DNA from: Tribonema minus
Taxonomy: Eukaryota > Sar > Xanthophyceae > Tribonematales > Tribonemataceae
NCBI GenBank assembly: GCA_017506865.1
Contig: JAFCMP010000536.1
Coordinates: forward strand, 1,302,001-1,366,000
Reading direction: 5' to 3'
Length of the DNA stretch: 64,000 bases
Part shown: piece by piece, positions 10,643 through 57,252 of the stretch
Layout of the letters: each line of letters opens with the position of its first letter
Position numbering within the stretch: position 1 is the stretch's first letter
Translations under genes and position numbers: made by a program
The notes under the pieces: generated by a model
Told to the model about the DNA's origin: nothing
Databases searched by the model: none
What the model saw: only the letters and a program-made list of their open reading frames with translations

Positions 10643-13600
10643 ATGAACTCCGTGATCTTGGCCACCGCGGGCTACGACCACAAGGTCAACTTCTGGGAGC
10701 CGCCCAGTGGAGTATGCAGCAGGACCCTGAGGTACAGCGACAGCCAAGTCAACTGCCTACGCATCACACCCGATAAGCAGGTGAGAACTTTGTGAAGCAT
10801 TGCTTTCATCACAAATGAATGAGAAACTCTGTACTCACAGCACTTGGCAATATTTCAGGTCGCTAATCAAAACATAGGTACGCCACCCACACCAGGAACA
10901 GTGTGCACAAGAGATCACATTTTACCAATTCTTTCAGACACCATCATCTCTTGTGGTGCTTCCAGTCTGTCATGGCCTGGACTGTCAGGCAAAGCACGTC
11001 TGCAAACTCACTTTCGTGCGCACGACAACCCCCCACAGCATGCACCTGACGACCCACATAGAGCATGCCACCTCTCACACTCACACCAGCTTTGCTCGCA
11101 ACAGCGCTGCGTCGTCCGCTGTGTACCTGCAAGTAGTGCCTCGCTGCGAGCTCCCATCTCCCAGCGCCCGAAGTATGCTACGCATTCAATGCTTAATGCG
11201 TGCATGGGTTACTATTTGTGCTGTGCGCTTTCGCAGTTCCTGGCGGCGGCGGGCAACCCCCATGTGCGACTGTTTGAGATCGCCTCGCAGAACCCCAACC
11301 CCGTGGTGGCGTACGACGGTCACACCACCAATGTGACGGACGTGGGGTTTCAGAAGGACGGCAAGTGGATGTTCACGGGCAGCGAGGATGGGTCGATCAA
11401 GGTGAGGTTTGAAGTTTCGCCAGCCGATCATCAAAGTTGAAGTTTTTGATCTCTGTGATGCGGTGAAGCGGTCTGAGGCAGGCGTGCAGTGGCAGCTACT
11501 TGGGTCAAAACAATGACAATTTATGACATGGCGACAGATGGCGGGGGTGGACCCGCCAGCACCGACTCTCCTGTACTTGACATACGTTGATTGCAGTAGA
11601 CACGCTTGTGTTTGGTGAAAGATGCGCGCAGATCTTCTCTGCCGACGAGGATGGCTTCTCCGAGCCAGTTCAACATTGGACTTGTCACATTCTGACATAT
11701 CCGAAGTGGGCATCAATTTCTGTACAGTGTCCGCAATGGTTTGATCACTTCTCTTCTTGCCTTCGCCAGCGTTGGAGTTTCAGCAGTAGAGTTGCTACAT
11801 TGCTACATACTGCATTCCTGAATTGCTGACAAGTGATTATGGCTGATTCAGAAAGATGGCTCAGCGCTCGTTCCGCAAACGTGCAATTGTCGCAACCGCT
11901 GTACCTGGACCCAAGCGCAGCTGCATGGCTCGCCTGAGCACTGCTGTCAGTCGTGCAAATGCTGCAGCAGTCATGATCGTCGTCGAGTACACCTCCATGC
12001 GCGGCACACACACCCTAATCATTACACTGTTGCGGCGAGAGCAGACTGGCAGCGGCGCTGGGCCTGATTGCGCGCACGGCCACCGCCATCATGCGCGCTG
12101 CATCTCTGCCGAACAGAGAGCTTGCCACCCTGAAGTTGATCAGATGGCGAGCGACTGCAAGTGGTGGCTCAGTGAACCGGATGCCTGATCCCCCGTGCTG
12201 TCTAACATCATACCAACACACCCCCTTGCCGCTGCTGAACATGATCGTTTTGTAACAGATCTGGGACTTGCGGGCGCCGGGCTGCCAGCGCAACTACGAG
12301 GCCAAGGTCAGCAGCACGCTGCTGAGCCGTGTCACGCTGTTGCATGCCTCAGTGTGCCACACAAAATCACACATGGGGTGCGTTGCTTGCGCACATTGCG
12401 ACGCGCGAACGCTACGGGTGTGGAGCACGTCTTTCTGCTGGACCTGTTGCTGCGTTGCTCACAGACGCACCGCTATTTAACGCGCCGCCGAAGTTTGGAG
12501 AGTGTGTGTATTGGAGTCGCTGCGTGGTCACTGTACCGGTTGTTGAGACCATCGTGTCGTGGTCACTGAACAAAATTTGACCCTAAAGTTTGGGTCATGA
12601 CATTGCTGCATGTTCACCATGCTCTGGCACCGGCTGTGCCGCCACATTTCGGTCGCAAGCGGTCAGCCGTTTAATACCCATCCCTCACTGCTGTATTTGC
12701 AGCTGCTGAGCCATGTCAAGAGCTGGATGCTTATGCACAAGGGCGTTGCCCTGCTGCCTGTAGGCAGTAATACGCAGCGCGCTGTCATTCGCGCCATGTT
12801 CGCGGTCCAAAGCTGCAATAAAATGAGCATTGCTGCTGCGTCTTGCGTTTGGGCCGCAGCTGTGATCGTTGCCACGTCGTGCGCGTCGCGCAGTCAGCTG
12901 AGTGTTGCTGCTGCTTTTGCGTCTCGCAGGCGCCCGTCAATGCCGTGGCGCTGCACCCCAACCAGGCGGAGCTGATCAGCGGCGACCAGCAGGGGAAGAT
13001 CAAGGTCGGCGACGCGCGCAACAAATGCATGCGGCTGCTGTACATTGTGAATGTAGATCAATCGGTGATAGAATGAGATTTTGTTATTTACGTGGAGGCC
13101 ATCGACAGCAAGCGGCGTCTACATGTCCGGAAGTGTAAGCAAGTGCGAACCGGTGCTGCAGCCGTGCCTTACTTTGGGACCTGTTTGCGTGAACCGTTTT
13201 CTGTCACGACTGCATTGCACACTAACGCGAAACATGATGTGTCAGCAATGTCTCTTTGCGAAAGCTCAATCCTTCAACTGCCTTTGTGCTCTTCTTAATC
13301 AGAAGACCACGTCCGATACCACTCGATTGCTGGCGCCAATTCCATATGGGCCGCTAAACAACCGCTGACGAAAGAGTTCGGGTTGCGAGCACAGCCTTGC
13401 AACCACAGGAAGCAGATGTGGACACGCAATGCTCTAAGCAGCAGCAGCAGCAGCAGTTGCGCAGCTGACCCCACTCTATGCGCTCTTTGCGGTCGTTGGT
13501 GGGCGCAGCGCGGTGGGCGTGCTGCGCGCAATCAACCCTCGTCCTAAACCTACCCTGACCCTACTAACTCGTTGGTCCACAGCGCTCAACCTCCCCCCCC

Positions 13601-14038
13601 CCCCCCCCTCATGCTTGTGCTGAGCCATGCTGCAGTCGTGGGACCTCACGGCCAGCAAGTGCATAGAGATCGCCACGAACGGCGACGAGCACCCGATCCA
13701 GAGCATCAGGTGAGGGCATCGCTTGCTCAAACGTCAACTTTGACTCAACAAGATCAGATGATCGTTGTTACCTGCGTAATTCACTGTGTGCCTATCGTCC
13801 TCTTTTCAACGCAGTCTGCGTGCGCGCGCTTCGCAGCCGCGCGCGCATGCGCGTTCTGCGCCGCCGCGGCCTTCTAGTCGTCGTCAGCGCATCTTGCGAC
13901 GCGCACGTGTCGCGCGTGCATCATGGCGCACCCCCCTGACTGCAGCAGGACGTCAAGGATAGCCCTGTTGAACTTTGCAGCTGCGCGTGCTCCCAGCGCT
14001 GCCACGACCGTTGACCCCCCCCACCCCCCCACGACCGT

Positions 14039-14069
<31 letters not shown>

Positions 14070-16219
14070 AAGTTTACACATACATGACTTAAGCAGGTTG
14101 ATGATGCATGATGCATGCCAAAGTGCACCTGTCTTGCAGTGCGAGTGAACTAAACCTCAACATCTCTTGGTGAACCCTTTGCAACAACACACACGCGACG
14201 GCTCGATGACTTCACTCTTTAAACGTCACTTCGCACGTGCGCAGCGCCGCCACGGACGCGAGCGTCATCTCCCCCCCCCTCCCCCCCCCCCCACCCGCGC
14301 ACACACACAACACAAAACGACGCAACAACTTCACTTTCAAACTTCATCTCGCGCGTGCGCAGCGCCGCCACGGACGCGAGCGTCATCGTCGCCGCCGGCA
14401 GCCACGGCCGCGTCTTTGTGTTTGAGCCGGGGCGCGACGGCCGCAGCTACGCGCTCGCCTCGCACTTCAAGGCGCACGAGGGCTACCTCTTGAAGTGCGT
14501 GCTCAGCCCGAATGTGCGCCAGCTGGTGACGACGGGCAGCGACAAGACGGCCAAGGTGCGGCGCGCGGAGCGCTGCGCGCACTGCTAGGCTTAGGGTTAG
14601 GGTTCGGGTCAGTGTTGAAAGGGTTAGCTTTAGAGTTGAAGTTGCTGTTGAAGTTGCACAACGGGCAGTGACAGGACGGCCCAGGTGGGGCGAGCGGATC
14701 GCTGCACGTCGCGGGCACGCGCTGTTGGAGTTAGGGTCAGGGTTGAAGTGAGGGTTAGCGTCAGAGTCACAGCTAGGCTTGAAGTTGGACGACAAGCAGC
14801 GGCAAGACGGCCGAGGTGCGGTGAGCGGAGGGCTGCTGCGCAATGCAGACGCGCTCTGTTAGGTTTAGGGTCCGGGTCAGGATTGAAGGGAGGGTTAGCG
14901 TTACAGTCAAGGTTAGGGTTGAAGTTGGGCTGCTGGACACGCCGCGAATGAGGAGGCAGGCCACGGAAGCGCTGCTGGTGTCAGGGTCAGGGTTAGAGCC
15001 AGGGTTTTTTACGCGGTGTTGAATTACCTGCTTCTACGTGAATGCTTAATAGTCACCAAGAAGTGATTTGGAATCATGATCATGTTGATACTCATGCGTA
15101 GAACGTGTGCGGCAACCAGACGAGCCTCCTCATGACCTGGCATGTGGCTGTAAAGTACTGAAGTACCTGGTACCAGTCTTGCAGTCTCTCAATGACTGTG
15201 AGCTCGCCATTGTGCCGCCTTTGTTGAACTCAGTCAGGTCTGGAAACCAGATGGCAACTGGTATGGTACTCACCTGGCATAACAGCGGCGGCGCACGTAC
15301 ACGGTGACACAACGACGGCGACAAAGTTCATATACTGTAAGTCGCTGAACGAGTGAGCTTGTGACTGTACCGCATGGTTTAAACCTCAGGTCTGGAACGT
15401 GGGCGGCAACTGGCCGCTCGAGAAGACACTCGCGCAGCACCAGCGCTGGGTCTGGGACGCCGCGTTCAGCGCCGACTCGAGCTACCTCGTAACCGCCAGC
15501 AGCGATCACAGCGCCAAGCTGTGGGAACTCAGGTGATTGGCGCTAATATCAAGTACTTGCAGTTTGTGCCTTGCACACTATGCCGCGTTCAGTGTGGATT
15601 CGAGCTGCCTCGTAACCGCCAGCAGCGACCACAGCGCCAAGCTTTGGGAGGCTGTGGGAACTTAGGTGGTTGGTGCTCACATCAAGTACACGCAGTTTGC
15701 ACCTGGCATACTATGCCGCATTCCTCTTGTGATCATGCGACGTGCTGAAAAAAAAGCTCTTGGATAGGCACGCGAGCAGCAATTGCGCAGGCAGCAGTAC
15801 TGTTCGGAACCGAGCTACCTGATGACGGCCAGCAAGAGTTGCGTGTGCAGACCAAAAACATACCTCATGGTTAACTTCACGTCGCAGTGCTCACCACGGG
15901 CGATATTAGATTCTGTGACAGACAGCAGCGGTTGCAGGGTGGTAAACCTGTGTGTGCCTGGTCACTGAGACTGTACACAGCACTTCAAGTCACTTTACTT
16001 GCAAGTGGAAGGTTTGTCTCACGCCGCGCATTACGTCTTGATGAGAAAGCGTCATGTGCTGCTATAACTACTGCTCTGGGGTGTGTGTGACTGAGCATCA
16101 TCGCCACGCGTGCTGCGTGCGTCAATTTTCCCGTTCTCAGGAGCGGGGAGGTGATCCGCCACTACATAGGCCACAGCAACGCGGTGACCTGCGTCGCGCT
16201 GAACGACAGCAGCACATAG
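10643..16219 (+). CDS. LST8: LST8, WD40 subunit of the TOR complex (8 exons, 304 aa)
   Basis: Exons: 10643-10780, 11237-11401, 12259-12306, 12930-13004, 13636-13709, 14363-14555, 15390-15532, 16141-16219. All junctions keep phase, and the total is 915 nt including TAG. The protein begins [20 protein letters not shown], the usual LST8 opening. It shows repeated WD blades: [72 protein letters not shown]. It ends [26 protein letters not shown]8 is a seven-bladed propeller that binds the TOR kinase domain and is shared by TORC1 and TORC2. The length matches the family (about 300-325). Exons 6 and 7 have partial copies in the adjacent introns. The sequence right after exon 4 could be read on as VGDARNKC, an alternative or remnant of the blade. 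Confidence 0.95.
13595..14069. repeat. Poly-C tracts in LST8 introns 4 and 5
   Basis: Long C runs occur at about 13603-13612 and 14046-14069, with further C-rich tracts near 14272-14292. They sit upstream of true acceptors and could act as polypyrimidine tracts, or could be assembly-sensitive homopolymers. Confidence 0.7.
14245..14269 (+). repeat. Upstream partial copy of LST8 exon 6 (acceptor + 5' part)
   Basis: The string GTGCGCAGCGCCGCCACGG and the following bases repeat the acceptor and first 25 nt of exon 6 (14363), 118 bp upstream. The copy then runs into poly-C. It would offer a second acceptor but no full exon. Confidence 0.8.
14556..15005 (+). repeat. Two downstream copies of the LST8 exon 6 donor edge, with telomere-like repeats
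   Basis: The end of exon 6 (GGGCAGCGACAAGACGGCC, donor at 14556) recurs with donors at 14685 and 14816, spaced 129 and 131 bp apart. Each unit continues into a similar intron stretch with GTTAGGGTCAGG-like telomeric words and TTGAAGTTG. These are tandem duplications spanning the exon 6/intron 6 junction. The copied exon tails carry substitutions (for example AAGACGGCCGAG). Confidence 0.85.
15588..15845 (+). repeat. Downstream copies of the LST8 exon 7 donor edge
   Basis: The last half of exon 7 ([23 protein letters not shown]) is repeated at about 15588-15665. There it is followed by a donor GTGGTTGG, and a small duplicated TGGGA tail disturbs the end. A third, decayed copy (CGAGCTACCTGATGACGGCC) lies at about 15811. 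Neither has its own acceptor. Confidence 0.85.
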
Positions 16220-20669: not shown

Positions 20670-23600
20670 CTACTTGCTGCAGTGTAGTTCTGGTCGATTC
20701 CATGCGAGCACACAACAGGCCGGGGCCGCTAGAGCTCTGCCGTCTTTCATTGCGCAACCGCCGCCATAGCTGCACATCCCCCGCTGCCTGCTCGTGAGCT
20801 GCGTCTCAAAGCCCCCGCCCGCTCTTAACGCCCCTCGCGCGAAACCCGCATGCTCTCTACATTCATCACCTTTGCGACCGGAAGTTGACGAGTCAACATG
20901 TCAAAGTCAACAACAGGTGGGGGATGAGAGGCCGCACCGCAGCAGCGGCAAGTGTTCCTCGTTAAGCTCGCCGAACGCATTCTGTAGTATCGGCTCAGAA
21001 GTATCTGAGACGAGACGCATTCGATTCTGGTAGCGATGTGGACGTCTACCTTCTGGGCATTTCCGCGCCCTACATGAGCGAGAATTGGAAAAATGTACCT
21101 GTTGGTGAGCCATGTCTCACAGCTGCCCTTGCCGTCGCGCGCGCCGCCGCCGCCGCCCTGGCCCTTGAAGCCGCCGTCGCGCACAAGCTGCGCCAGCGCG
21201 GGCAGCGTCATCTCCTCAGAGTACAGCACCTCCACGGGGACCTTGGCGTTGAAATCCTGCACACGCGCGCAGGGGGACAGTTGCACAGGAAAGGTGATGA
21301 GCAACGCTAGCGTTGCATGCTGAGCGATGCCGTCGCTGCGCCAGTCCGGGATCTTAATCTTCTCAGAGCACGTGAATTTCAAGGGAACCTTCGCGCTAAG
21401 GTAGGCATGAGCAGAAGTGCCCGCACAGAAAGGCGCTGAACAGTGCTGACGCGTCTGAGCGGTGCTGCAGCTGAATTACTGAGCAGTGCTGCAGTCATGA
21501 AGAAAGGCATTGAGCAGCGCCGCAGCCGCATGCTGAGGAGTGCCGCAGTTGTCTAACGCGCCGCCTGCACGCACCCACCGTCTCTGCGTTCCTGGCGCAC
21601 ATTGCAATACCGGTAAGGTGGTGGCGATGCCGCCCTCTCTGCTTTGTTGCAGCCTCTGTTCGTGCGGAGAGGCTTTGGCGTCGGCTGACTGCTGCTGACG
21701 TGTCTCTTTGCCGTGCTAATTGAAGTACAGAACGACACACACGGTGAGCCTGGCAGACCTCAACGGCGCAGCGCGCATATGCTTCATGCTCAGCACGTGC
21801 CGAAGAGGATGACTTGTGAGCGACTCGCACACTCACTTGTCGAAGTAGCAAGCGATGCTGCCCACTACATGCACGCCGCCACCAGCACACAGCTCGCCAG
21901 TACCGTGAGGATGATGTGCACATTACTGGTGAGGCTCGTATACTAAGGGCATGCTAGCGATTCCAAAACACGGACGTCAGGCACCCATTCCAGCACACCG
22001 CTCGTGTTTCAGCAAGCCCAGGCCGCACCCTTCACCGTTTCATACACGCATGCATACATGGCTCACCTGCTCCAGCACACCGCTGAGCTGACCCATGCTC
22101 AGCGAGTCCAGGCCCAGCTCGTGCAGGGGCCGGTCCGGCGGCACCGGCGCGCCTTGCGCCAACTGCGAACCCACGGCGGCGTGTCACACGGCAGTGCACG
22201 CAGGTGCGGTGGCGCGTCAGACAGGGGGTGCCATGAAGTTGCACGAATACGCAGCGCTGTGGCAGGGTTGTGCCTCGCCCCACGCCCCTTAAGCCTCAGC
22301 TGTGCGGCAAATGGTGTGGCAGACGGCAGCCCGAGCAGGTGCGGCGGCACGTGAGACAGGGGGTGCCATGAAGTGTATGAATATGCACGGTGGTGGCTGG
22401 GTTGTACCTCACCCCACCCCCCTTCGCGCTGCTGCTCCTGCTGACGCTGTTGCACGGTGAGCACATAAAGAGGTATATATATTCACACCGTTGTCTCGTA
22501 AAGCCAGGGGTATGCGGCGCTTGGATCCTGCCAGGCAGTGACAAATGTGAATGCGCAATGTCGCACACAAACTGCCGCGCACGGTCTTCGAGCAGCGAGA
22601 GCACGTGCACCGGCGGGATCAGCTCGCATGGTGCTGCGCGGACGGTACGCTTCAATACAAAGGGTTGGATCGGAGTGTACTGTACCTAGCCCCAGTGACT
22701 GAATCACTGAGTAAATCATGAGTGTAAAGGGTGCTCTGCAGCAGCTAGGTACGTGAGCGGTACCGCCACGAGCTTTTTGCCGGTGTGGCTTTGCTGAATT
22801 TGCAAAAGTTGTACTGTTTGCACCCAGCGTCAAAGCACAGATGCAGTGCACGCGTTGAGTCCCCGTGGGGCGCCAGCACATGTTTGTGCTTTCTTGAAGG
22901 AATCTGCATGAAATGGTGCAGACAGCGGGTACCGCTTCATGGCGAGCCGGGGGGCAATGCACAAAGCACTGCAGTGAACAAGCAGTTGCGTAGGTGCGAC
23001 GAGCAGGAACCACTTCTTGGCGAGCCGGGGGGCACCGCACATAGCGGTGCAGTGAGCGAGCAGATCCGCCGCCGACTGCTCGCAGCATGGCGCGCACCTG
23101 AGTGAGAATGGCGGCGATGCGCTGCTGCAGCTCATCGTCGCTCAACATGGACACGTCCACCGGCGCGCCGCCTCCAATGTCCACGTCCTGGCATTGCGAG
23201 CGCATCCAACGGGCGCGCGTGAGTGCTTTCCACCAGGAGATACTGCGCCAAGTCCAGGGCTGGCGGCTAAACCTCCGCCCTTGCGCCGAGGCGGTTGCGC
23301 CCTGCCCTTGCGCCGGTTGCGCCTCGACTGAGCATTTCGGGCCAAGGCGCAAGAGGCGCAACTTAATTGACCCGAAGAGGTTGCGCATGTTGCGCCTCGG
23401 GCGAAACTGGGTTTAGCCTCAGGACCGGGGGGGGCTAAACACCTTGCGCCCCAGCGCAAGCCCTCGTGACGTCACAGCATGCTGTTTTCCGGCTGTTTTT
23501 GGCTTGTTTTGGAGCAACAAATCCACCGACTCGAAAACGTCAGCATGTGTGCCTGTTCATTCGACGGTTCACAACCCGCTACACATGCGAAGTCCCGAAT

Positions 23601-23948
23601 TGTTGCGCACGTTGCGCCTCGGGGCTAAACCTTGTTTAGCCTTTGGGCAGGGGCTCAACACCATGCGCCTACGCCCAAATGGTTTAGCCGCCGGCCCTGG
23701 CCAAGTCGTACCTTTGAAAGCGACTCTTTGGCAAAGTGCAAATCAGCCGGCCGCACAATTGTGCAGTGTGTAAACAGGGTGTCTTCGTACAGGAATGACT
23801 TTGTAGCATCACATCTACTTCAAAGCATCATGAAAGCACCCTCATCCGCAACAATACCAGCACAGCTACCCTCCAGAGTACACTGGTAGCTTCAAAGTAC
23901 ATACCCATGCCTCCCCCCCATGTGCGTCGTCTCGTCGCTTTGCCAAAC

Positions 23949-23981
<33 letters not shown>

Positions 23982-26900
23982 ACACACACACACACACACA
24001 ATGTATTGCATGACTTGAGAGTTCACTAGCACACTCCGAAGTATGATTGACCCATGTGTATGTACCAAGCGCGACATCAATCGCCTGGGCTCGCGCATCC
24101 CCTGAGCAAGAGTTGATAAAGGCTACACTGAAGTGCACTAACCCTAACCCTAACCCTAACCCTAACCTAACCCTAACCCTAACCCGAAACACATGTATGG
24201 ATATGATCCTCATGTGCATCATTTCAATGCCTCTGTTTAACAGGTTAGCAGACTTTGAAGTTTATCATCATACTCTCTTGAGCGACAGTACAAGTACTTC
24301 AAAATAAATGCGTACACCCCGACCCACACCCTCATGTGCGTCATCTCAATCCCCCTACTGCACATACTAGCAGACTTCCACTGCTGCCGATGCCACTGTC
24401 ATGCACGTCCGCGCCTGCGTGTTCACTGGCTGAACGCTGAGCAGAAGAGGCGTATTGAAGAAGTCTATGACTGTACCTCTGAGCTGCACAACTAAGGCAT
24501 TGAAAGTATATGTATACACCCCACCCTCACCCTCATGTGCGCCATCTCGATGCCGCCGCCTCCGGCGTCCGCAGGCGGCGCGCCCTCGCCTGCGTCGCCC
24601 TGATCTTCCGACGACGTGCCGCGCTCGTACAGCGGCGCGAGGGACCCCGCCAGATACGCGCGCTTGCACCACTGCCGCGCGATCTTGCCGCTGCAGCGCC
24701 GGCAGCGACAGCGGCAACACGGGGTGTTGCGTCAGTCCGTTGAGAAGGGGACAATAGTGCTGCGGGCTCACCAGATGGGTCGTTGAGACCTTAATTACCA
24801 CTGCCGAGCTGTCTCGCCGTTGCAGCGTCCGGCAGCGATGCGGAACGCGCGAAGAACGCCACGTTCATGCGCTGAGACGACAGCCAGTAGTGTGCGTTTT
24901 TCTTTTGGGGGGAAAGGGGGGGGGGGGGGGGGTCAGATGGGAGCACAACCAGCATGCTCCAAACCAGAAAGGGTACGCGCGTTACAACTACCAGGCTCGT
25001 CCTTGCAGCTGACGCATCTGCTGCTTAGGGTTTAGGAGCAGGAGGAGGGTTAACTAACCCTAACTATGCTTGTACTGGCCGCTGAAGGCATCACGCCCGC
25101 TGCATGCCGCAAGCTGTCACAGCCGCGAAACCGTCCTGGTGGTCTTGATATTGGTGCGCGGCGCGACGAGCTGCAGCGTCGACACCACCAAGCCCAACAA
25201 CAGGTCGGGTACTTCAACGTCGAAGTACAGCCATGCCAACGTTACAAAAATGCAGTGCTCCCGAGGCAGCAGTGCGCGCGTTGCGAGAACCATGCTCGCG
25301 CTGCCCGTCAAAGTCGTCCACTCCCTGAGGGGTATTAGGAATAGGGTTACCTAACCCTTACCCTGACCTTCACCCTGACCTTAGTTCACCAAATACCGTA
25401 CTCGTCCTGGCCACTAAAGTGATCCGTCCGCTGCCCGCGCGAGCCGCCACGTTCCCAAGACGCACCTGGTGGTCTTGCTATTGGCCCGTGGCGCGATGAG
25501 CAGCAGCGTGGACACGACAACGCCAACATCCATCAGGTACTTCAACATTGAAGTACAGCCAGGCCAACTTCTTCACAACTGGAGTGCTCCCGAGCACCAG
25601 TACACGCATGACAAATATCATACTGACCTGGTGGTCTTGCTATTGGCGCGCGACGCGACCAGCAGCAGCGTGGACACAACCACGCCGTGCTCCGCGCGCA
25701 CGGCCGCGGCGACCGCCGTTGCGACGCCCGCCAGTTCGTCTTGTGAGGCCTTCGCAAGCGTGTCCTTGACCTCGCAGCTCAGCACCAGCTCCTCCTGGCC
25801 TGCGCAAGGGAACGACGGGAGCGGCGGCGGCGGCGCTGAGCAGGGTGGCGCAAACAGCGGCAGTAGTGCTCTGCAGTGACAGTGATGCTCAGCACTAGCT
25901 CCTCCTGGCCTGCGCAGGGGAGCGGCGGCGGCGGCGGCGGCGACAGCGCTGCTACAGCAGCGTTCAGCATGATGCGGTAATCGCGATGCCTGCAGAGTAA
26001 CCTGATAGGGTTCTGGTCTGCGTATTGTATCCTTGACTTCACAGCTCCGCTCCAGCTCATCACAGCCCGGAAAGGAAAGCGACGGCGGCGGCACCGGCGC
26101 TGCCGAGCGTGGTGCAATACTTGATGGAAGCGCTCTGCACGGTACGCGTCAACTAATCTCACAAGGAGAAAGCCCCAACGGCAGCAACGCTCAGCCCAGT
26201 GAGACGGCACTCGCCGCTCCTGGCGCCTGTGACAGCTGAAGTGCTCTGTTTGTTAGAAGCGCGCCCCATGACTTCATAATTCACAAAGCCTGCAAGCTCG
26301 TCCTGGTTGCTTCCACCCCGCGAGTGCAGCGGCAGCTGAGCCTCAGCGGCCAACTGAAGTCAGTAGCGCTCTGCGCGCAGTGGCAGTGGTAGTTGCCCGC
26401 CGATGTTAAAGCACTTTAGTGCAGTCCAAGGCATGTGGCGCGCTACTGGGAAGCCCGCGCACTGGGCTTTATGCGTATACAGCGCAGGAGCACTGTCATG
26501 AGCGTTGTCGCCTTGTCATCAAGCCATTGCTGCTCCCCTGAGCCTCGCCGCAAACTGTTTATGGAAACGAGTCAAAAGATCGTAGAGCTTTAGGTGAGAA
26601 GGTGTGGTTGGCCGTCGAATTGAATGCCTTCCACCAAAAGCCGTGGTCGCCGCTGCTGCGGCAATCGGCCACTTGATATCTTATTTCAGACGCCTCTTCC
26701 GCCTTTGCCTACACCATGATGAGCGCTGTCACCTTGTCTGTCCACGCTGAAGGCGGCAGCGCACCCCGGCCGGAGCGCGTCCGCGCGGCACTGGCAGGCG
26801 CACGCCTGCGGCAGAAATTGCGCACGCGCACGCAGCACAACGGTCACAGTAGAAGCATGGGGGTGATGCAGCTGTGAGTGTGCGTCTACGCGTGCAGACA

Positions 26901-46202: not shown

Positions 46203-49200
46203 CGGCAGCACCGCTGCGCTGCGCGCCCGCCGCTGCCCCCGCTGCTGCCGCGCACGCATTCCACGCCACCCCCCGCGCGCACGCCAACATCTGGTATGAC
46301 ACCGAGGAGACGGCAGCCGTCATTGGCAAGCCCGCGCCCACGTTCGAGACGGCCGCAGTGATTGATGGCGAAATCGAGAAGATCTCGGTGAGTGTGCCTG
46401 CCTCTTGCGGCGGCAAATGTCACGGCCGCAAACTGCTTGTTAGGTTGCGGCTTCAGCACTTCCATAACAAATCTTCAAGTTTTTCATCGTGTTTTCCATC
46501 GTGTTTTCTTGTTTTTGTTTTTCCCAAAAGGTCTCATTCATTGTGAAATCTGCAGTACATTTGTGTCAAGGCCGCAAACTGCCAACTGTTTCCATTGCGC
46601 TTTGCAGTTGCCGACTGCACTTTTCCTAACGTGCATATCTCGTGACCTCATTCGTGCTTGATGTTCGTCAGTTCAGTTCTCGCACTGTTCTTTTTTTAGT
46701 GTGCATATCTCGTGAAACTCGTGGCTGATGTTCTTATCACCATGCTGGCCGACTCAAGACGAATGTGCTCACCTCCCTATTCCCGTTCTTTTGCTGCCGC
46801 AGCTGGAGCAGTACAAGGGCAAGTGGACTGTGCTGCTGTTCTACCCCAAGGTGAGCGCCGTGACGTGCATGCGCAAAATCAGTACACCAGAATGGACTGA
46901 TACATTCCGACCTGGCACGCTTGCTTTGCGATGCTGCTCCGGAACATGAATCCTTTCAAATGACACTCTACACTCAGTGCAAATTCGTCAGATGGCCTGA
47001 CTGTCATTTCCTGACCTTCCATACTTGCGTTGCAATGCTGTCTGGAATAAGGTTCGTGTAACCAATTTGTGTAATCAATTTGGCGGGATTGGCGTGCTTG
47101 GCAGTTTTGGGCTCTCACTTGTCGAGCCACCCAGTATACTCGCCGTGCGCCACACAGATTGTAATTCTATTGCTCGTGCGCAATCACTACATGGGAAGTT
47201 CGCGGCTCGAGCTCACGCTGTATACGCATGCCCGCTGCCGCACAGCACCCTCATGTGAAGTACACGTTACAAAGCCGTGCGGAGCGCGTATGACGCGATT
47301 CAGTGCTCCCCAAATTGTGCATCATTGAGTCAACATTTAAGATAACAATGCGTCCTGTATAGAGGAAGGTTAGAACAGTGGCGTGTTGTAATCAGCACCT
47401 TGGCGCAACGCATGTACTTTTTGAAATATTTGTCGTGCACCCTCTTGCGAGTGTTTGTGCCTGACGGCGCCCTGTGCCATCTGAAACTTCAAATCGTACT
47501 TCGCCGCGCGTACACAAGGTTTATTACAAGTGCACACTGTCGAGGGAGGGAGCTCAAGATATACACGCACTCATTGCCGCACAGGACACCTCATCTTGAA
47601 GTTACACGCCCCAAGGACAGTGCAAACGCGCATGTTACCCTCTTTGGTGCTTCCCGAATTGCGCGTACACAAGGTGTCCTTTGTAAGAAGGTCACAACAC
47701 TAGTATACTGTTGGACGCAACGCGTGCACGTTTACTGATACGTGTGCTCTCATTCATTTCAAATATGTTTGTACCTCCAGATGTGGCGTCTTCTGCCAAC
47801 TACAACTTCAATCCCTGCTTCGCTGTGCTCTTCCTCCAGGACTTCACGTTTGTGTGCCCCACCGAGATCATCGCCTTCAGCGACCGGCACGACGAGTTTG
47901 AGAAGCTCAACGCGCAGGTGCTGGCGATATCAACAGACACTGAGGAGTGCCACCTGGCGTGGTAAGCAACAACCACTCAGTTGGAGCAAGATACATTCAC
48001 AGCATGGCTTCAAGATGATAAACTCTATGGCTTTAGAGAAAATATATGTTCAATTGCGGATTTTGTAAATCATAGATTCTCTTCAGCTCCAAAAATAGCA
48101 GGTTGCACAGGGTCACCATTTTTCAGCGACCGCCACGAGGAGTGTGAAAAGCTCAACGCGCAGGTGCTGGCGATATCAACAGACACCGACGAGTGCCACC
48201 TTGCCTGGTAAGCAATCAGTCAATGTCCCTCCAATCCAATCCACTTCTGAAGAGCGATGCGTTTGAAGCGCAGGCATGGAGCTTTAGAGTACGTCATCAT
48301 CAGCCCATTGCGTGTACCAGGAATTGTTGGGATAAGCTTGCGGTGCATCGCGGTCTGCAGAGTGCAGTGACAGCGGTGAATGGTCTAAGGAACTTACCAC
48401 TTCACAGGTTGCCATCGGCAGTCGCCTGAGGTGCTGCCTGGGAGTGCATGCACGCTGCGCCGTTGACGGCAGTTGCGCTCTTGAGTCAGTCGGTCGGCGG
48501 AAGGCGAACTCGCAGAGTGATGCAGTGCCAGCTCGGCAAAGCCTGTTTTCAGGGGGTGCTGCTATTCACTACTTCGAAGCAGTTTGACGTATTGGCATGA
48601 ACGAGTCACATTTGGCAGTGCTCAGCCCTGCATTGCGCGCTGCGTGCTGGTGCCTGCGGTGACCACGTCTCGATGTTTTGGCACAACGATGACAGTTACT
48701 ACATCTGCCAGACACTTGCGTCAGTGCGCTGCGATCGCTGCTGCCCGCTGCCGGCAGTGGACACTTCAACAGTTCACTGACTTCAGGCGGTGACATTGTG
48801 AGCCAATTGGCGTGCTCTGCGACCGTTCTCACAGCGCGTATCGCCTGCACTGCTGCTGCTGCTGCTGCTGATGCTGACCGTGAATGAGTGCAGGACGAAG
48901 GTGCCCCGCAAGAAGGGGGGCCTGGGGCACATGAAGATCCCCCTCGTCGCAGACACCACCAAGGTGACATCATGACACCAAGTTGTGCTTTTTATTGCGG
49001 ACTAGTAGAGAAATCATGACGCCAAGTTGAGATTCTTATTGCGGACCAGGAGACGCTCCTCGCAATAGCGGGAACACTTGTCGCTGCTCAAATCGTTGCT
49101 ACTGAGTTGCATTGAGTTGCATGCCAACCCCATCTTTGTGACTTTGAAGCACTTCAAACCTTGAAGACCCCCCTCGTGCGGACACCACCAACGTTACGAA

Positions 49201-52200
49201 AAGACACGACCATAAATTGTGCTTTGTTGTGCGGACGTATGCCGGCAGGAGACGCTCGTCGTGATAGTGGGAACCCTCGCTACCTCTCTACGGCTCGTGA
49301 TTGCTACTTAGAATTAGTGTAAGGACAATTGCATCCTGCTGACTCTGAGACCCCAAGCTCTTCAAGACCCCCTTGCGCAGGTTGCCATCAACGTGGATCT
49401 ATCAACAGCAACATCGCCAACTCAACTCCCAATGCCCACATTCAGCAGGGCAGCATCTAGGGTTGCCGCCCTTGACATTCGGCTCAGCTGAGATGGTCTG
49501 CACGGTGCCGAACACCTTCATGCCTTTCATCTCAAATGCCCAATTTGTGCAGCCTTCGGCCTCCGTACGCTCGTGCCGATGCGGGCTTGCATTGCACCCC
49601 TCCCGCACGCTCAATCACGACCTGGCACGGGCATTCTAACCCCACCTTCCGCCTGCACTCCGCAGAGCATCGCTGCAGACTATGCTGCTCATACATATAT
49701 CAAATCATTAATATGGGTGTACTTCAAAGTAGACTATATACTTGTAGGCTAAATATATGGCAACACATGGTCTGCGGTATGCGCCGCCGCGCGCGACGAA
49801 CGCCGCCAGCAGTGCAAGAATGCTCTGCTCTGCTCCAGACAAACACCAGACACCGATGACTCATCCCTGCCGATCTCAATGTGCGGTTTGCAGAGCATCG
49901 CTGCAGACTCCGGCGTGCTGATCGAGGAGCTCGGCATCGCGCTGCGCGGCCTGTGTTCTGGAGCAGATCACCATCGACTTGACGTTCTACAATGACGCTG
50001 TTTAGGCCCTTGACCTTGCACGGGTATTCTAACCCCGATCTACGCGTGCAATCTGCAGAGCATCGCTGCGGATTACGGTGTGCTCATTCAGGAGCTCGGC
50101 ATCGCGCCGCGCGGCCTGTTCATCATTAACCCCGACGGCGTGCTGGAGTGACACTGTCAACTTCAACCCCAACTGCCCACGGACTTTCTAATCGCGACCT
50201 TTGCCCGTGTTCCACAGAGCATCGCTGCGGATTACGGCGTGCTGATCCAGGACCTCGGCATTGCGCTGCGCGGCCTGTTCATCATCAACCCCGATGGCGT
50301 GCTGGAGCAGATCACCATCAACGGCCTCCCCGTGGGCCGCTCCGTGGACGAGACGCTGCGGCTGCTCGCGGCGTACCAGTTCGTGGCGGAGCACGGCGAG
50401 GTATGTATGGGTATCAGACTTACATACAGTATGTATGCTGCTGTCTACCAGTTCGTGGCGGAGCACGGCAAGGTATGTAGGGTATGAGACATATTTGGAA
50501 GTATACAGTATGTATGCCGCTGTCTGTGGACGAGAGAGACGCTGCGGCTGCTCGCGGCGTACCAGTTCGTGGCGGAGCACGGCGAGGAATGTATGGGCAT
50601 GCCCAGTTATCCAAAGTACATATACAGTACGTACACGAGAGTGTTCTGTTTGCGTGGTCGAGACGCTGCGGCTGTTAGCGGCGTACCAATTCGTGGCGGA
50701 GCACGGCGAGGTATGCAATGGGTGCCAAGCATGTATACAGTAGGTATGCTGCTCTCTGTACGAGACGCTGCTTATGTGCGGTGCCTATCATTTGTGGCGG
50801 AGCACGGCAAGGAACGGGACATGAATAGCATTACCTGATCCACATTCATTGTGTAACTTATTGTACCGAAAAGTGGTGGCTGCCTTCGGTTTATGTACCC
50901 CAAAGGGCGCAATCTGAGTTTCATATCTATACGTAAATCGAATAAATTGCTGCTTCTGCACTGGTGGAGATGTGCCCCCCCCCCCAAACACTTGACCCAT
51001 CCTGAGTTACAGGTTTCCGTTCGTCGTTGTGGAGTAATCGTGCTACACTTCCTACCACTCGGTAGCTGAGCCTTGCTCTGTCAGCCGATGAATACCGTTT
51101 TGTTTGCTCGCTGCGTGTGTTTTTTGTGTGCCCATCAGTTATGCCGGGAGATGCCCCCCCCCTCCCCCCCCCCCTACTTGACCCATCCTTATTTACAGAT
51201 TTTCGGTTCTGTTGTGGATCAGAGTTGCTATGATACATGGCCTATTAGTCTGAGCCACCCCTCCTTCAGCTGATACATAACATTTTGGTTGCTTGCTGTG
51301 CGGTTCAACCCGTCAGGTATGCCCCGCCGGGTGGACCCCTGGCGGCAAGACCATGAAGGCAGACGCCGAGGGCTCTCTTGAGGTATGACGCTTCAGATTT
51401 GAAGTTGTGGCAACCGCCGCTGTGATGTACCACGCCGCAGCATGACGCCAGCTTGCGGCTTTTTTCACGGGGTACGGCGGATAGGCACAATCAAAGGGGT
51501 ATGCTGCTATGGTCACCAAGGAGAGTGGCGCCTGATGTATTATTGTTGTGTGGGACAAGCTCTGGGAGCCACACGAGGTAGCGAGCGCCAGCCGCAGCGG
51601 TCACCTCAACCCGTGCCCCTAAAACCTAACCCTAACCCTAACCTCCCATATTAGGGTTAAGCGGTCACCTCATCCCGTGCCATCAGTACAGTGATGCCCC
51701 CAACGGTCGTTGATGGTGTGCGTGGGGCGTGGAATGTACACTATTGTACAGGCCTTCATGCAGCCCTTTTGCGTATGCCGTCGAGTGTGCCACAGTGCCC
51801 GATATCTACTTTTCACACGCCCGAGCAAAGTGCACGCAGCTGCATCTGCAGCGCCAGCAGCTATTGGTCGTTGCCGCAGCCAATCACCACCTGCGGCACG
51901 TCATCCAGCACCTCTACTTCAAGCCAGTGGCTTCGATTTCCTGCACTGTTTACGTGTTTCTGGTTACCACAGGCCCTTCACTGCCGTCCGATGATTGACT
52001 GTTGTAGACACACCGCCTCATTTGATCCACTTTGCGCTGCCTGCCTTGGTTGATCCACTTTGTGTTGCTTGCCTCGTTTGATCCACTCTGCGTTGCTTGC
52101 CTCATTTCATCCACTTTGCGTTGCTTTACTTGATGATTCGCATTGCGCTGCTTGCCTCGTTTGATCCCCTCGGCATTGCTTGCCTCGTTTGATCGACTCT

Positions 52201-54257
52201 GTGTTGCTTGCGGTACTTCTTGATCCACATTGCGTGCGTACCTTGCCTCGTTTGATCCACTCTATCTTACTTGCCTCGTTTGATTCACTGTGCGTTGAGT
52301 GCAGTACTTCTCAACCGTGGAGGGCGAAGGCGACGTGCTGGCTGCCTCCGACAAGGTCAAGGTCATCAAGACCCCGCAGGACTACAAGGTGAATACTTGA
52401 AGTACTTGTTGCGGTACTTATTGAAGTGACATTTTTGAGGTAGCTCCCCTGATCATGTCCGTGCTTTGCCTCGACTGAAGCAGCATGCTCATGTGTACGT
52501 GCAGAAAGGGAGCACTGGGCGATTTGGGCTCAGTCTTCTGAAATCCATCATAGGTTAAGCTGGATATCATTTCATTGTGTGTACAAGATTAATTATATGT
52601 GCCTACCGGCAGCTTCAATGGGCGCATGGGTGCAGCCATGAAGCAGCAGGTCTCATGCATTCCTCTCGTGCTGCCTGTGCTTTATCTAGACTGCAACAGC
52701 TGGTCCCAGAGAGAGAGAGAGAGAGTGCTGGGCGAGTTGGGCTCAGCCTGCTGTAGTTCAACTTGGATGTAAGCTGCATGCAGCTTCATCTCGACTGTGC
52801 ACTTCTGCTTACTGGTGCTGCAATGACAGTGCATGCATCGATCTTGGCATGGCATCCGCGTCTGCATAGCAATCCTGGATCAGTACCAAGCTCGCCGATA
52901 GCTGCCGCGCCCACCAACCATGATATGCTTCCTACCAATCTCAAACCATGCATAATGCGCTCCAACGAGTCGCTCTCCTGCAGTACGCTGACGCGACACT
53001 CGATGATCCATGTGGAGCGTATGCATTGCGCCCCACAATTTCGTCTCGCAATATGACGGTAAAACCGCCTGCTACGCAGCCATTTGCTTCATATTGCATC
53101 CATGGTGCTCTCCGTAACTGTCACCAGAGTGCAGTCAAATGACGCGACACTCAATGCTCTGTGCGCTGCGCGGTGGCGGTGCTGCAGACCGTCATCAAGG
53201 AGGGCCTGCACCCCACAATCCCATCTCCCAATATCATTGCAACACCACTCCTACCAACCGCCTGCTACACAGCCACCCCTCGCTTCAAAGCGCATTCATG
53301 GGGCTGTGCATAACTGTCATCAGCATACCCTAAGTACACTGATGTGACACTCAATGCTGTGTACGCTGCGCGGTGGTGCAGAACGTCATCAAGGAGGGCA
53401 AGGCGGTGGTTGACTTTGTCGCACCCTACTGCGGGAAGTGCCGCCAGGTACGCTTCACAGTTGAAGTTTGTGTTAGCAGTGCTGGAGCGTCAGTCATAAG
53501 GTTGAAGTCTCAGGTGCGCCGCGCACGTCTGCAACACCCGCACCGCCGCTGCATGCATGTGCGCACTCGTGCGTTGTGTCTGCGCCTGCGGTAGGTTTCA
53601 TACATCCTGCTGCTTCACCTCTGTGAGCCGCTTGTGCGGTGGCAGAGGTGCATGTTGCGCTTTGAGGGGCGGAGCGCTGCCTTCACATTGCTGCTGCCAT
53701 CGTCAATGCGCACGACGCAGTTTGGCGGGTGGCACCCTACGTAAATGGATGCAGATGCTCATGGCGCCTAGGGTTAGTGTTACGTCAGGGGCTAGGGTGA
53801 GTGTGAGGGTTAGGGTTAGGGGTTAGGTTAGTGTTAGGGTTAGGGTTAGGATGAGGGTTAACCCTCAGTCCCCGCCGCTCTCGACCGTGCTATGGTATGT
53901 ATGCGCCATGGCCATCGTTAATACCTTAGGGTTAGGGTTAGGCTTCCGCGCTGCTCTTGACCGTGCTATGGTATGCATGCGCCATGGCCATCGTGGCTAC
54001 CGCCCACATGCGCCTGTGGCACATCACGTGTTCGTGTGCCACAACGGTGCAAATCGGAGCGAGGCCAAATCAGGGCCAGTGTCAGGCTTAGATTGACTTT
54101 AGTGAAGCGCAACATTGTCGCTGGAATGCACCGTTTCCATGCGGCACTCACTGACAAATCTGCAAGCACCAAAGCCCCTCCTACTGCCCCCTGATGGCAG
54201 TTACACAAGGTCCGCGCATGAGCTGAGCATCACCTCGACCATGTTGCTGTGTCGCGC

Positions 54258-54296
<39 letters not shown>

Positions 54297-57252
54297 GCTG
54301 CTGCTGCTGCCGCTGCTGCCGGCTGCCCGTGCCGCGCGCAGATCATGCCGTACGTCAACGAGCTGAGCGAGGTGGGTCATCCTTATTGTCATACTTCACA
54401 CACTTCTCGTGCAGGACGCTTCGGTCCGTGAGCCAGTGCCTTGGAGCCTTGCGTTGAGCATATGCAATGGCTGAAAGAAAGGCCTGGGCTCGTACTTCAA
54501 CTTCCTGCCAACCGTCCTCCGTCTGCAGCAGTGACCAGATGCTGTCAGTCGTGAAGTTGGAACTACGCACACGCAGTGCAGAATGGAGGTAAACGTAGAC
54601 CTGCCGCAGGCAGCCCGCAGGCGCTAGCGTAGGCGCCGCGCCAGACCAGAACAACAAACAAGAGCATTCACTACGAGAATCGAGAGAAATGTAACCGAAA
54701 TGTACCGGCCATTCTCGACGGGTAGTCTAAAGTACATCATCACGTCACATGCAACTGATGAGTGTTGATACTGAATCAGACACTAGAATATGATTGAGGT
54801 CCATGTATCAACAGTGAACACGTGCACCGCAGCCTGCTTCGTGCCGCAATGCGCGCTCGCCGCCTCGCGCCTGCCTCTGCGTGCTGCTGGGGCATTCTGC
54901 AGTCGCACGTGTACGTGGGACAAGTTGAACCGCGTGCGAGGCCCCTCACTTGAAGAGGCGCGGCTTGTTTTGGGGACCTGTGCCCCTGGCTTGGCTGAGC
55001 AGCGCCACCCATGGGCGTGTCTGATGCAGACTGTCCGGCAGAATTCAGGAAGGGTGGTCTACGTAGCTTCAGATCCCTCCCAGGGCTTAATGTAGATTGG
55101 TATTGGCCGCTCGCTCTTCAATCTCATCAGTGTAGAGCGCTGCCATGCCACGCCCCCAAGGCTTGAGTTTAGTTGAGCGCGTGAGCTGTCGAGCTCATCG
55201 CCATGCCCTCCTTAAAAGAGGTGTTGTGCGCTGATGCGACATTGTGGTTGCGACATATTGACCATGCACGCTCATGCGCTCGCGCCTCCTCTTCTGAAGT
55301 TACCTCTTTGCGCTGCAATGTTCTGGCGTCGCCATGCCCCAGCACAAAACGCTCCAGCACGGCAGTTCACCTGCGTGAGCCTCCTCACAAGGCCTGTGCT
55401 GCAACTGAGCCTGTCCTCGACTATCCCGCCCCGACACAGCGCATGCATGCTGTGAATTGCTCTCAAGCCGTTACTGCCCCCCCGCTGCTGCTGCACCCTG
55501 CAGAAGTACCAAGACGTCACGTTTGCCAAGTTCGACACCACCGAGGACGCTCTGGTCGAGCTGAGCGCTGACCTGGGCGTGCAGGTGCGTCACCTGCCGG
55601 ACTTGAAGTACTGTTGACCTGCTCTGCAGTCAGCCTCTTGCTCTTGCTGGGCGCTGCGGCATGTGCTATGCTGGCCGGGCACTAGTGGTCTGCGAACATG
55701 TCACTGCTTTATCTCCATAGAAACGCTCTTAATCCTAACCCTAACCCCAACCCTGTGTGTCGATCAATGCTATTTTTTCAAAGAGTGGTCATAGCCCAAG
55801 GGCGCAGCAATTCTGCTCAATGTGAAGCACAAACATAAGCGAACACAGTTTACAAGGCATAAAGTACGCGCTGTCTTATGGTGGACCAAATTGGAGTTAT
55901 CGCTGCATCAATGACAGTTACCTTTGGCAAGGACTTGAAAGCACAAGCTCATGACTCGTTTTTCATTTATGTTGTCTGGACAACACAATTTGCCAACAAG
56001 AACGCATTGTGTTCATGAGCAAAAATTGACTGCTTGCTCCATGGCTCAGCTTGGCCATCGGCGCTTTGCAGAAAGTGCAAAAGTTTTTAGCGCAGTACAT
56101 GATGAGCGCATTGTACCGCCCGCTGTGAACTTCAAACTGTGCTGCCGGCAGGCGCTCCCCGCATTCCACTTCTTCAACAACGGCAAGCCCGTTGGCACGC
56201 CCGTCACCGGCTACAAGAAGAAGGCTCTTCAGGTATGTACTGATGCTCAACGCTCAGCGATCGCAGGTTGAGCGGCGCTGCTGCCGAAGAATAGGGAGTT
56301 TGAAGGATGCGTCGGATGCGTTGACGCAATCGTGTGCTGGCATGGAGGACATCATTATGTTGCTTAAAAGCATAGGTTGCTGAGCGCTGCCGCCTACAAG
56401 AAATGCGCGTCGTTGCAGCGTTTTGGCGGCATCGTGTTAACAAACCAGCGCGCTTTTCTGCGATAGGGTGTTAGTGTCAGGGAGCCGGACACAGCGCCTT
56501 GTGGCAACGCAATGACGTGCCTCACTTGCACTTTCTGGTGGTTGCTGCCACGCCCCAGCCTGAAACTGCGCTACTTCAACTAGTTTGGTACATTGATTTC
56601 ACAGGAGCCGGACAAAGCGCCTTGTGGCAGCGCAATGACATGCCTCACTTGCACTTTCTAGTGGTTGCTGCCACGCCCAGTCTGACACTGCGCCCCTTCA
56701 ACTAGCTGGTACAGTAAACCTGATGTGCTGAAAGCAAGCGGCCAGCAGGCATGTAGCGGATGTGCTGCTTGCGTCACGCTCTCTGCTGTCTGCAGGGCTG
56801 TGTCGTCGTTACAGCCTCAGGCATGAGGTCAGACTGTTTCTCGCATGAACATGGCGTTGCTGCACTGCAGTAGCACACGTGCTTGCGCGGACGGCAACAG
56901 CTGCGCTGCCGAATGCAGCCGCTGCTGGCTTACAGTTGACTTCCTTGCGCAGAGCTCATCGTGCGTGCAATCCATGTCTGCTTTCAAGGCGCGGAAAGCA
57001 GGCAATTCACGCCATGTCAATTTGCAGACATCATCCATGCTCCGGTCCCCCTGGCGTGACCCGAACGCATGCAAGCTCGCAGACCATCCCCTGGCACAGC
57101 ATTCGTCGCGCCTGTGTGCTGCTGTTTTACCTTCATTTCCGTATTCCTCGAATACTTGCGCCGGATCATATTGATTTCTGTGATTTTCTCTTCTACTTTT
57201 TGCCGCATCATCGCTGCAGGCGGGCGTGGAGGCGCTGCGGGCCGAAAAGTGA
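46203..57252 (+). CDS. 2-Cys peroxiredoxin-thioredoxin fusion (11 exons recognised, first exon not found)
   Basis: Exons: 46203-46387, 46803-46850, 47840-47961, 48894-48963, 50218-50400, 51317-51382, 52305-52388, 53382-53447, 54342-54371, 55504-55584, 56152-56232 and the terminal 57220-57252 (TGA). Phase is kept at every join. An unspliced start at the ATG at 46124 is the alternative. The N-terminus is Ala-rich and may be a targeting sequence. The peroxiredoxin part has the peroxidatic Cys in FTFVCPTE, the [10 protein letters not shown] motif of over-oxidation-sensitive enzymes, the resolving Cys in HGEVCPAGW and a YF motif (EYFS). With no stop it runs through [12 protein letters not shown] into a thioredoxin domain: [14 protein letters not shown] active site, FAKFDTT, and the cis-proline in ALPAFHFF. 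The enzyme should reduce peroxides, with its own thioredoxin domain as reductant. The thioredoxin site is YCGKC, not WCGPC. Several exons have edge copies. Confidence 0.93.
48121..48209 (+). repeat. Downstream copy of the Prx exon with the peroxidatic Cys, lacking that Cys
   Basis: The copy keeps [19 protein letters not shown] and the donor GTAAGC. It begins at an internal TTCAG that could be used as an acceptor, 246 bp (donor to donor) after exon 47840-47961. It lacks the FVCPTE segment, so splicing to it in place of the real exon would give a protein without the catalytic Cys. Confidence 0.9.
49666..50217 (+). repeat. Three upstream copies of the Prx SIAADYGV exon acceptor edge
   Basis: AGCATCGCTGC after a CAG acceptor begins at 49666, 49894 and 50059, before the intact exon at 50218; spacings are 228, 165 and 159 bp. 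The first breaks after about 20 nt. The second lacks codons for FIINPDGV. The third reaches INPDGVLE, then a TGA. Upstream flanks with GGGTATTCTAACCCC (a CTAAC branch-point-like word) are duplicated too. Confidence 0.95.
50401..50815 (+). repeat. Four downstream copies of the same Prx exon's donor edge
   Basis: The exon end (YQFVAEHGE plus donor GTATGT) recurs with edges at about 50472, 50586, 50710 and 50811. Different lengths of upstream exon are retained, the longest beginning at [13 protein letters not shown]. Donors are GTATGT, GAATGT (dead), GTATGC and GGAACG (dead). TATGTATGCTGC intron words are copied with each unit. Confidence 0.95.
52016..52304 (+). repeat. About 30-bp minisatellite abutting a Prx-Trx acceptor
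   Basis: About nine diverged units of TTTGATCCACTNTGCGTTGC plus TTGCCTCG run straight into the acceptor GAGTGCAG at 52304. One unit carries GGTACTTCT, the start of the exon itself. The array looks like very short repeated duplication of the intron end. Confidence 0.85.
52712..52727. repeat. (GA)n run
   Basis: This is a short AGAGAG microsatellite in a Prx-Trx intron. Confidence 0.8.
52985..53381 (+). repeat. Tandem copies upstream of the thioredoxin active-site exon
   Basis: The edge CTGCAGACCGTCATCAAGG at 53188 copies the true edge GTGCAGAACGTCATCAAGG at 53382, 194 bp away. The shared flank GACACTCAATGCT(C/G)TGT and the segment ACCGCCTGCTAC(G/A)CAGCCA show at least two rounds of duplication, with an older copy from about 52990. 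Confidence 0.85.
53770..53950. repeat. Interstitial TTAGGG-type repeats
   Basis: Interrupted GGGTTAG units fill 53770-53860 and recur near 53927-53942 in a Prx-Trx intron, with a duplicated flank GACCGTGCTATGGTATG(T/C)AT on both sides. Confidence 0.85.
54258..54322. repeat. (CTG)n run next to the thioredoxin [10 protein letters not shown] exon
   Basis: About 20 CTG/CCG triplets end just before the acceptor CGCGCAG at 54341. The tract may serve as the polypyrimidine region. It is intronic, so it codes for nothing in the spliced product. Confidence 0.85.
56486..56715. repeat. Tandem duplication of about 119 bp in a Prx-Trx intron
   Basis: GGAGCCGGACA(C/A)AGCGCCTT and the following GTGGTTGCTGCCACGCCC occur twice in direct orientation, with about 95% identity over the shared words. 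Confidence 0.85.

Follow-up and report, generated by a model that had tools for sequence, protein, structure and literature searches.

Polarised partial copies of exons in the introns of the xanthophycean alga Tribonema minus

Exon stuttering, also termed sequence stuttering, has been described in chicken (Hron et al. 2026, Genome Biol Evol, PMC12954441), and this avian phenomenon is the closest known case to the arrangement reported here and a precedent for it. According to that paper, stuttering involves 115 genes and 236 introns with 1 to 44 copies per expansion, the introns show strong length polymorphism, and 190 of the 236 are on the GC-rich dot chromosomes. GC-rich loci are presented there as an association and not as part of the definition, and the authors remark that gerbil genes are also a case. 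In the literature searched, which was mostly open access, the two terms were confined to that single paper. A paper on repeats in Ectocarpus describes long introns and tandem repeats, and copies of exons are unmentioned in its passages on these. Among titles and abstract openings, from a literature without most subscription papers and preprints, none mentioned copies of this kind from algae or other protists. Two other kinds of repetition in introns are familiar. Introners are dispersed families of repeated sequence in introns, and mutually exclusive exons are complete exons with two splice sites.

The window is the whole stretch of 64,000 nucleotides of T. minus DNA analysed here, and the genome behind the wider screens comprises 158.2 Mb in 554 contigs. 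Exons of three window genes were placed by eye from the sequence, and the joined frame was then tested for openness. The models are as follows.

10643..16219, plus strand: LST8 gene, 8 exons; the joined exons give an open 304-aa protein
10643-10780, 11237-11401, 12259-12306, 12930-13004, 13636-13709, 14363-14555, 15390-15532 and 16141-16219, plus strand: the LST8 exons
21099..31320, minus strand: presumed fatty-acyl-AMP-ligase / acyl-carrier gene, modelled in part as 11 exons in one open frame; the full gene is longer
46235..57252, plus strand: presumed peroxiredoxin-thioredoxin fusion gene, 12 exons; exons 2-12 give one open frame to the stop

The first peroxiredoxin exon (46235-46388) is approximate and was left out of the joined frame. 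The family names of the ligase and peroxiredoxin genes are presumptive, being taken from motifs recognised by eye. Residues 3-301 of the 304 encoded by LST8 match yeast Lst8 (5fvm_C) with an E value of 2.1e-108 in phmmer. The joined LST8 exons thus match Lst8 end to end, and the LST8 copies described below therefore lie outside the modelled coding sequence. With the peroxiredoxin and ligase exons in open frames as well, the coding sequence modelled in these three genes is intact despite the copies. Other open frames in the window are one of 1008 aa on the minus strand (1944-4970), rich in alanine, serine, glycine, and glutamine and containing trinucleotide repeats; one of 383 aa on the same strand (4489-5640); one of 264 aa on the plus strand (17688-18482) that has a signal-like stretch, ends rich in cysteine, and might encode a secreted protein; and one of 276 aa on the plus strand (37450-38280), in which no family was recognised by eye.

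Partial copies of exons are found in the introns of all three genes. The copies located individually in the window are listed below, where upstream and downstream refer to the direction of the gene.

14209..14269, plus strand: upstream copy of LST8 exon 6, with the intron end, AG, and the first 25 nt of the exon (exonic from 14245)
14658..14928, plus strand: downstream copies of LST8 exon 6 (3' end, donor, and intron); blastn to 14529-14788 gives 72% over 273 columns
15582..15723, plus strand: downstream copy of LST8 exon 7, comprising its 3' part and the following intron; 80% over 142 columns
24298..24353, minus strand: downstream copy of the 3' end of ligase exon 24531-24690 with donor; 82% over 56 columns
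25135..25194, minus strand: second downstream copy of ligase exon 25628-25799, with GA in place of the donor GT
25464..25524, minus strand: downstream copy of the 3' part of ligase exon 25628-25799 with donor; 89% over 61 columns
25887..25951, minus strand: upstream copy of ligase exon 25628-25799, acceptor and 5' part; 86% over 65 columns
28399..28437, minus strand: downstream copy of the 3' end of ligase exon 28503-28577 with donor; 90% over 39 columns
28818-28887, 29059-29178 and 29522-29590, minus strand: more matches for ligase exon 28503-28577
29254..29285, minus strand: upstream copy of the 5' part of ligase exon 28503-28577
48122..48215, plus strand: downstream copy of peroxiredoxin exon 47840-47961, positions 37-122 with donor; 91% over 94 nt
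49157..49192 (limits approximate), plus strand: downstream copy of the 3' end of peroxiredoxin exon 48894-48963
49894..49954, plus strand: upstream copy of peroxiredoxin exon 50218-50400, positions 1-61, AG kept
50059..50148, plus strand: upstream copy of peroxiredoxin exon 50218-50400, positions 1-90, AG kept
50446..50812, plus strand: four downstream copies of the 3' part of peroxiredoxin exon 50218-50400, from 50446, 50516, 50653, and 50748; two keep GT and two have GA
53063..53205, plus strand: upstream copy of the intron end, acceptor, and first ~18 nt of peroxiredoxin exon 53382-53447; 76% to 53256-53399 in blastn

The exon set combined the 31 exons modelled in the window with 50 taken from ten CCT chaperonin genes elsewhere in this genome, and the copy screen leaves out aldehyde dehydrogenase, HSP70, and AMP-binding hits. 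CCT exon limits are the ends of HMM hits and not splice sites. From 56 CCT hits one was dropped at a locus border and five were set aside as copies before counting, among which the hit at C279:808720 is possibly a genuine exon. Each exon edge supplied a probe of at most 40 nt, which was compared with the flanking introns in a four-cell test with 100 dinucleotide shuffles per test. In the window, the 5' edge matched significantly upstream at 7/31 exons and the 3' edge downstream at 9/31. The opposite cells held a single 5' edge matching downstream (1/31), marginally, with a score of 23 against a null maximum of 22, and no 3' edge matching upstream (0/31); no antisense comparison was significant (0/124). 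Exons with copies in the polarised cells are LST8 6 and 7, peroxiredoxin 3, 4, 5, and 8, and ligase 1, 3, 7, and 8. When real introns of the other two genes served as the comparison, the four cells gave 7, 11, 1, and 1, with 2/124 antisense. The 50 CCT exons, compared with real introns of other genes, gave 14 upstream matches of the 5' edge and 16 downstream matches of the 3' edge, none in either opposite cell (0/50 and 0/50), and 3/200 antisense.

A stricter screen of all 81 exons, with 162 edges, found partial copies at 35 edges, 73 in all; copies weaker than its cut-offs may exist. Upstream copies invariably carried the 5' part of the exon (31/31) and downstream copies the 3' part (42/42), and none of the 73 was a whole-exon copy, defined as at least 90% of the exon. 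Sixty-nine of the 73 lie no more than 15 nt from the exon end. Affected edges have 1-6 copies, with a median of 2, and the exonic part has a median length of 62 nt. The first-pass annotation had claimed strict polarity, which stands for 73/73 copies at the strict cut-off beside the one marginal 5'-edge match downstream in the shuffle test. It had also claimed partial copies for at least 17 exons of three unrelated genes. The occurrence in all three genes was borne out, but the number was not, as 10/31 exons pass the shuffle test. The window counts above exceed those of shuffled introns and differ by side and orientation, and the CCT counts extend the pattern beyond the window. The claim that most introns are built partly of exon debris proved too strong, since 13 of 28 introns hold a copy.

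The source of each copy is local: adjacent introns were matched in 29/134 cases and distal introns of the same gene in 0/400. Introners have been reported in algae and dinoflagellates, and that record is what favours insertion of dispersed intron-making elements of this kind, or of other transposons, beside exons. Such elements are nevertheless an exceedingly improbable source, because the copies match their own neighbouring exon. Moreover, the 1251-bp peroxiredoxin array, the single array searched against the whole genome, was found at its own place and at one other, weak match of 71% over 112 bases in a search that skips very common words. An artefact of assembly or haplotype merging is scarcely more credible. 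Merged haplotypes should yield near-identical whole-exon copies, which are absent among the 73, whereas divergence between copy and exon reaches 22%, and a single edge can have as many as six copies whose exon limits differ.

Local direct repetition is common in this DNA. In the self-comparison of the window, 50 of 57 blastn pairs were direct and less than 2 kb apart, and one pair at that distance was inverted. A repeat survey covered the window and 20 further loci, 12 picked for CCT genes and eight blind, for 248 kb in total. With low-complexity sequence filtered, it found 243 direct and 3 inverted repeats within 2 kb, many of the direct ones sharing arrays and so not independent. Nearest copies were spaced 60-180 bp apart in 103/142 pairs. 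In the three genes, 14.2, 20.6, and 27.5% of intron sequence consists of detectable local direct repeats. Since the eight blind 10-kb loci range from 0 to 13 direct pairs each, repeat density differs strongly between sites. Direct repeats of ~140-240 bp with 78-95% identity also occur at 222-1413, outside the three genes.

The introns contain a second kind of repeat, resembling the telomeric TTAGGG motif. There are 35 matches to TTAGGGTTAGGG with at most one mismatch, against 0.05 expected, at 14586-14996, 24136-24188, 28790-30391, 51623-51643, 53769-53944, 55732-55752, and other positions. In the three genes, 9/28 introns contain clusters of these repeats, and 184 kb elsewhere hold another 38 clusters. 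They are not in excess within the duplications: 11/61 clusters fall inside duplication spans, where 12.9 are expected. Fragments of plastid psaA were also seen in large contigs, at C168:558700-559000 and C490:626250-626500; a psaA family search listed 11 fragments, the longest covering 56 of 711 model positions. One plastid-derived psaA fragment, in a contig of 1.2 Mb, scores highest among solved structures against 9ygv and 9m4f (103 bits), ahead of 95 bits for the following entry; 9YGV is photosystem I of giant kelp, and 9JJ8, from the haptophyte Emiliania huxleyi, scores 85 bits. On this single match of 54 residues, a non-diatom ochrophyte is the likely source, perhaps one close to brown algae.

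The best explanation of the partial copies is very probably recurrent tandem duplication of short segments, where duplications that span a splice junction leave an intact exon and a decaying partial copy. The polarity follows from tandem duplication together with one intact exon, and it points to a mechanism and not to a directed process. Short segments would often be duplicated in tandem, placing copies mostly 80-180 bp apart. A unit lying across an acceptor would create an upstream copy consisting of the intron end, AG, and the 5' part of the exon, and a unit lying across a donor would create a downstream copy consisting of the 3' part of the exon, GT, and the intron start. The copy still joined to the rest of the exon would keep the gene working, so that selection would tolerate the event, and the detached copy would decay as intron sequence. 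Repeated events would then produce the 1-6 detectable copies per affected edge. The birth event was presumably a slip of replication or repair, the process is probably still ongoing, and the copied splice sites are likely to be mostly ignored.

Similarity that continues into the intron is what contiguous tandem duplication requires. Flanks were aligned at all but one of the 16 polarised window edges that reached significance. In these 15 cases, identity across the first 20 nt past the copied splice site was at least 70% in nine and 40-55% in the other six, with random pairs reaching ~51% in the same comparison. Similarity extended for ~40 nt or more through the donor into the intron at three of nine inspected CCT edges (C5:352998, C51:25807, and C279:806008). 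These flanks, the direct orientation, and the local source uphold the initial attribution to tandem duplication across junctions. Retention of splice sites in the copies, claimed at the same time, was confirmed in part: the splice dinucleotide is kept in 7/11 window copies, and the other four were scored as lost, including the LST8 exon 7 copy, whose edge is displaced by an indel. Several copies combine 90-98% identity in the exonic part with near-random sequence in the adjoining intron. The eight pairs displayed for this contrast were chosen from 19 with at least 90% identity, and outside the window their exonic nature was judged from splice-like motifs and not from gene models. High exonic identity beside near-random intron tells against one simple duplication followed by neutral decay.

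The share of repeats at exon edges bears on whether tandem duplication is uniform. Among 29 non-redundant repeats in the three genes 17 touch an exon, compared with 13-27% expected under eight uniform-duplication settings, which tells against uniform duplication as a complete account. Uniform simulations also produced polarity exceptions in 9/97 and 7/164 copies, compared with 0/73 observed, which tells against uniform placement. A possible, though doubtful, addition to tandem duplication is that exon edges are privileged, either because duplications start at working junctions or because conversion refreshes the copies. A near-star relationship among copies is in its favour: over 71 pairs, copy-copy differences amount to 0.76 of the summed copy-exon differences, and the simulated ratios are lower (0.61 and 0.68 with uniform, 0.70 and 0.72 with edge-biased duplication). 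The exonic parts of many copies are, in addition, far better kept than the intron parts. The observed star ratio is, however, just slightly above the simulations, and some copies retain both their exonic and their intronic part. The excess edge share over uniform duplication is a lead and not proof, for the simulations are built on assumed rates and the 29 repeats, treated as independent, cluster at few exons. Edge share, star ratio, and missing polarity exceptions together suggest preferred exon edges or conversion from the exon, none of them being decisive.

A pair of HSP70 paralogues, inverted relative to each other (C522:955201-957300 and C522:982201-984200), also has a bearing on conversion. 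Identity extends to 2246 of 2271 aligned bases. Third positions differ at 11/163 sites and two introns by 28.1 and 29.5%, so that homogenisation may act on the exons of this genome too; a further intron is nearly identical at its end, as after gene conversion. Within the alignment a single indel reaches 5 bases or more, an intronic tandem unit of 29 bp, which is a sign that tandem duplication may be recent, loss in the other copy being equally possible. A wider reading, in which working junctions are the preferred launch points of ongoing, genome-wide intron growth and the exon edge acts as a repeated template surrounded by star-like debris, is rather unlikely. The route that belongs to the same joint reading, through splicing- or transcription-coupled breaks or through one-way conversion from exon to copy, would share that low likelihood.

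The copies themselves look mostly unconstrained. At 18 multi-copy edges, private changes number 63/52/83 at codon positions 1/2/3 (p 0.023 against an even distribution); sites at which every copy departs from the exon in the same way count 6/0/10, and mixed sites 10/5/25. The third-position excess of private changes arises in part because exon GC at the compared sites is 0.62/0.43/0.82 over the three codon positions. Private changes are close to even, and the copies therefore behave mostly as debris. Gaps in CCT copies shift the frame in 20 cases and preserve it in 2, with 3 stops, and gaps in window copies shift the frame in 3/3. Over all copies, 239/447 exon-copy mismatches are at third positions; these, and the p value of 0.023 for private changes, weigh against purely neutral copies. 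Coding constraint was nonetheless dropped as the main reading on account of the distribution of private changes and the 20/22 frameshifting CCT gaps.

Use of the copies, as alternative or poison splice sites or as exons under selection, is improbable. Such use would fit the retained splice dinucleotides, the third-position-rich exon-copy differences, and the spacing between copy and exon, which is a multiple of three for 9/11 window copies, 18/35 nearest copies (p 0.02), and 32/73 of all copies. The p value for nearest copies is one among several post hoc tests, and in-frame spacing is a weak hint. Against use are the near-even private changes, the frameshifting gaps, the partial nature of all 73 copies, and the stop met in 9/11 window copies when the reading frame is extended to the copied splice site; using the copied sites would therefore mostly truncate the protein. 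The copies had further been described as graded by age, and a clean grading was not found. Identity declines weakly with distance from the exon (rho -0.26, p 0.025), and among 21 sites shared by two or more copies there is no outward order, 8 favouring the farther copy and 9 the nearer, with 4 ties.

Recurrent tandem duplication across splice junctions can be set against the systems described elsewhere. Introners are likewise repeated sequence in algal introns, but they form dispersed families, whereas the copies here match the adjoining exon. Duplication of whole exons, as in mutually exclusive exons, also repeats exon sequence in an adjacent intron; in contrast, 0/73 copies here are whole. 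Intron gain by tandem duplication, as in ATP2A1 and in the potato RdRp gene (PMC4974935), has the tandem duplication in common with the present case, and in potato RdRp the unit likewise runs from the end of an intron into the 5' part of the following exon. In those instances a new spliced intron is made, whereas here existing introns would grow, with the copies staying outside the modelled coding sequence; the coding sequences modelled from DNA require no new intron between copies.

The resemblance to avian stuttering is closer. By comparison with PMC12954441, both systems have imperfect intronic tandem repeats with units of tens to hundreds of bases, a lateral part of an exon copied with its donor or acceptor into the neighbouring intron while the exon stays intact, and a source at the exon border that affects proximal and not distal introns. 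The exonic part has a median of 62 nt here and 36 in chicken, and the median number of copies per edge is 2 here and 4 in chicken, the cut-offs of the two screens being different. Unlike the bird loci as described there, those of T. minus lie in a photosynthetic lineage unrelated to birds and are distributed over several large contigs, and repeat density is not associated with GC over 20 loci (rho -0.01). This compact genome allows short tandem duplication, the growth of introns, and the origin of decoy splice sites to be counted against a neutral expectation. With exons as conserved rulers, duplications crossing a junction stay recognisable and can be oriented long after those confined to introns have faded. 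Exon stuttering is thus extended from birds, and the gerbil genes, to a distant photosynthetic lineage, and its presence on ordinary large contigs speaks against GC-rich microchromosomes as a requirement.
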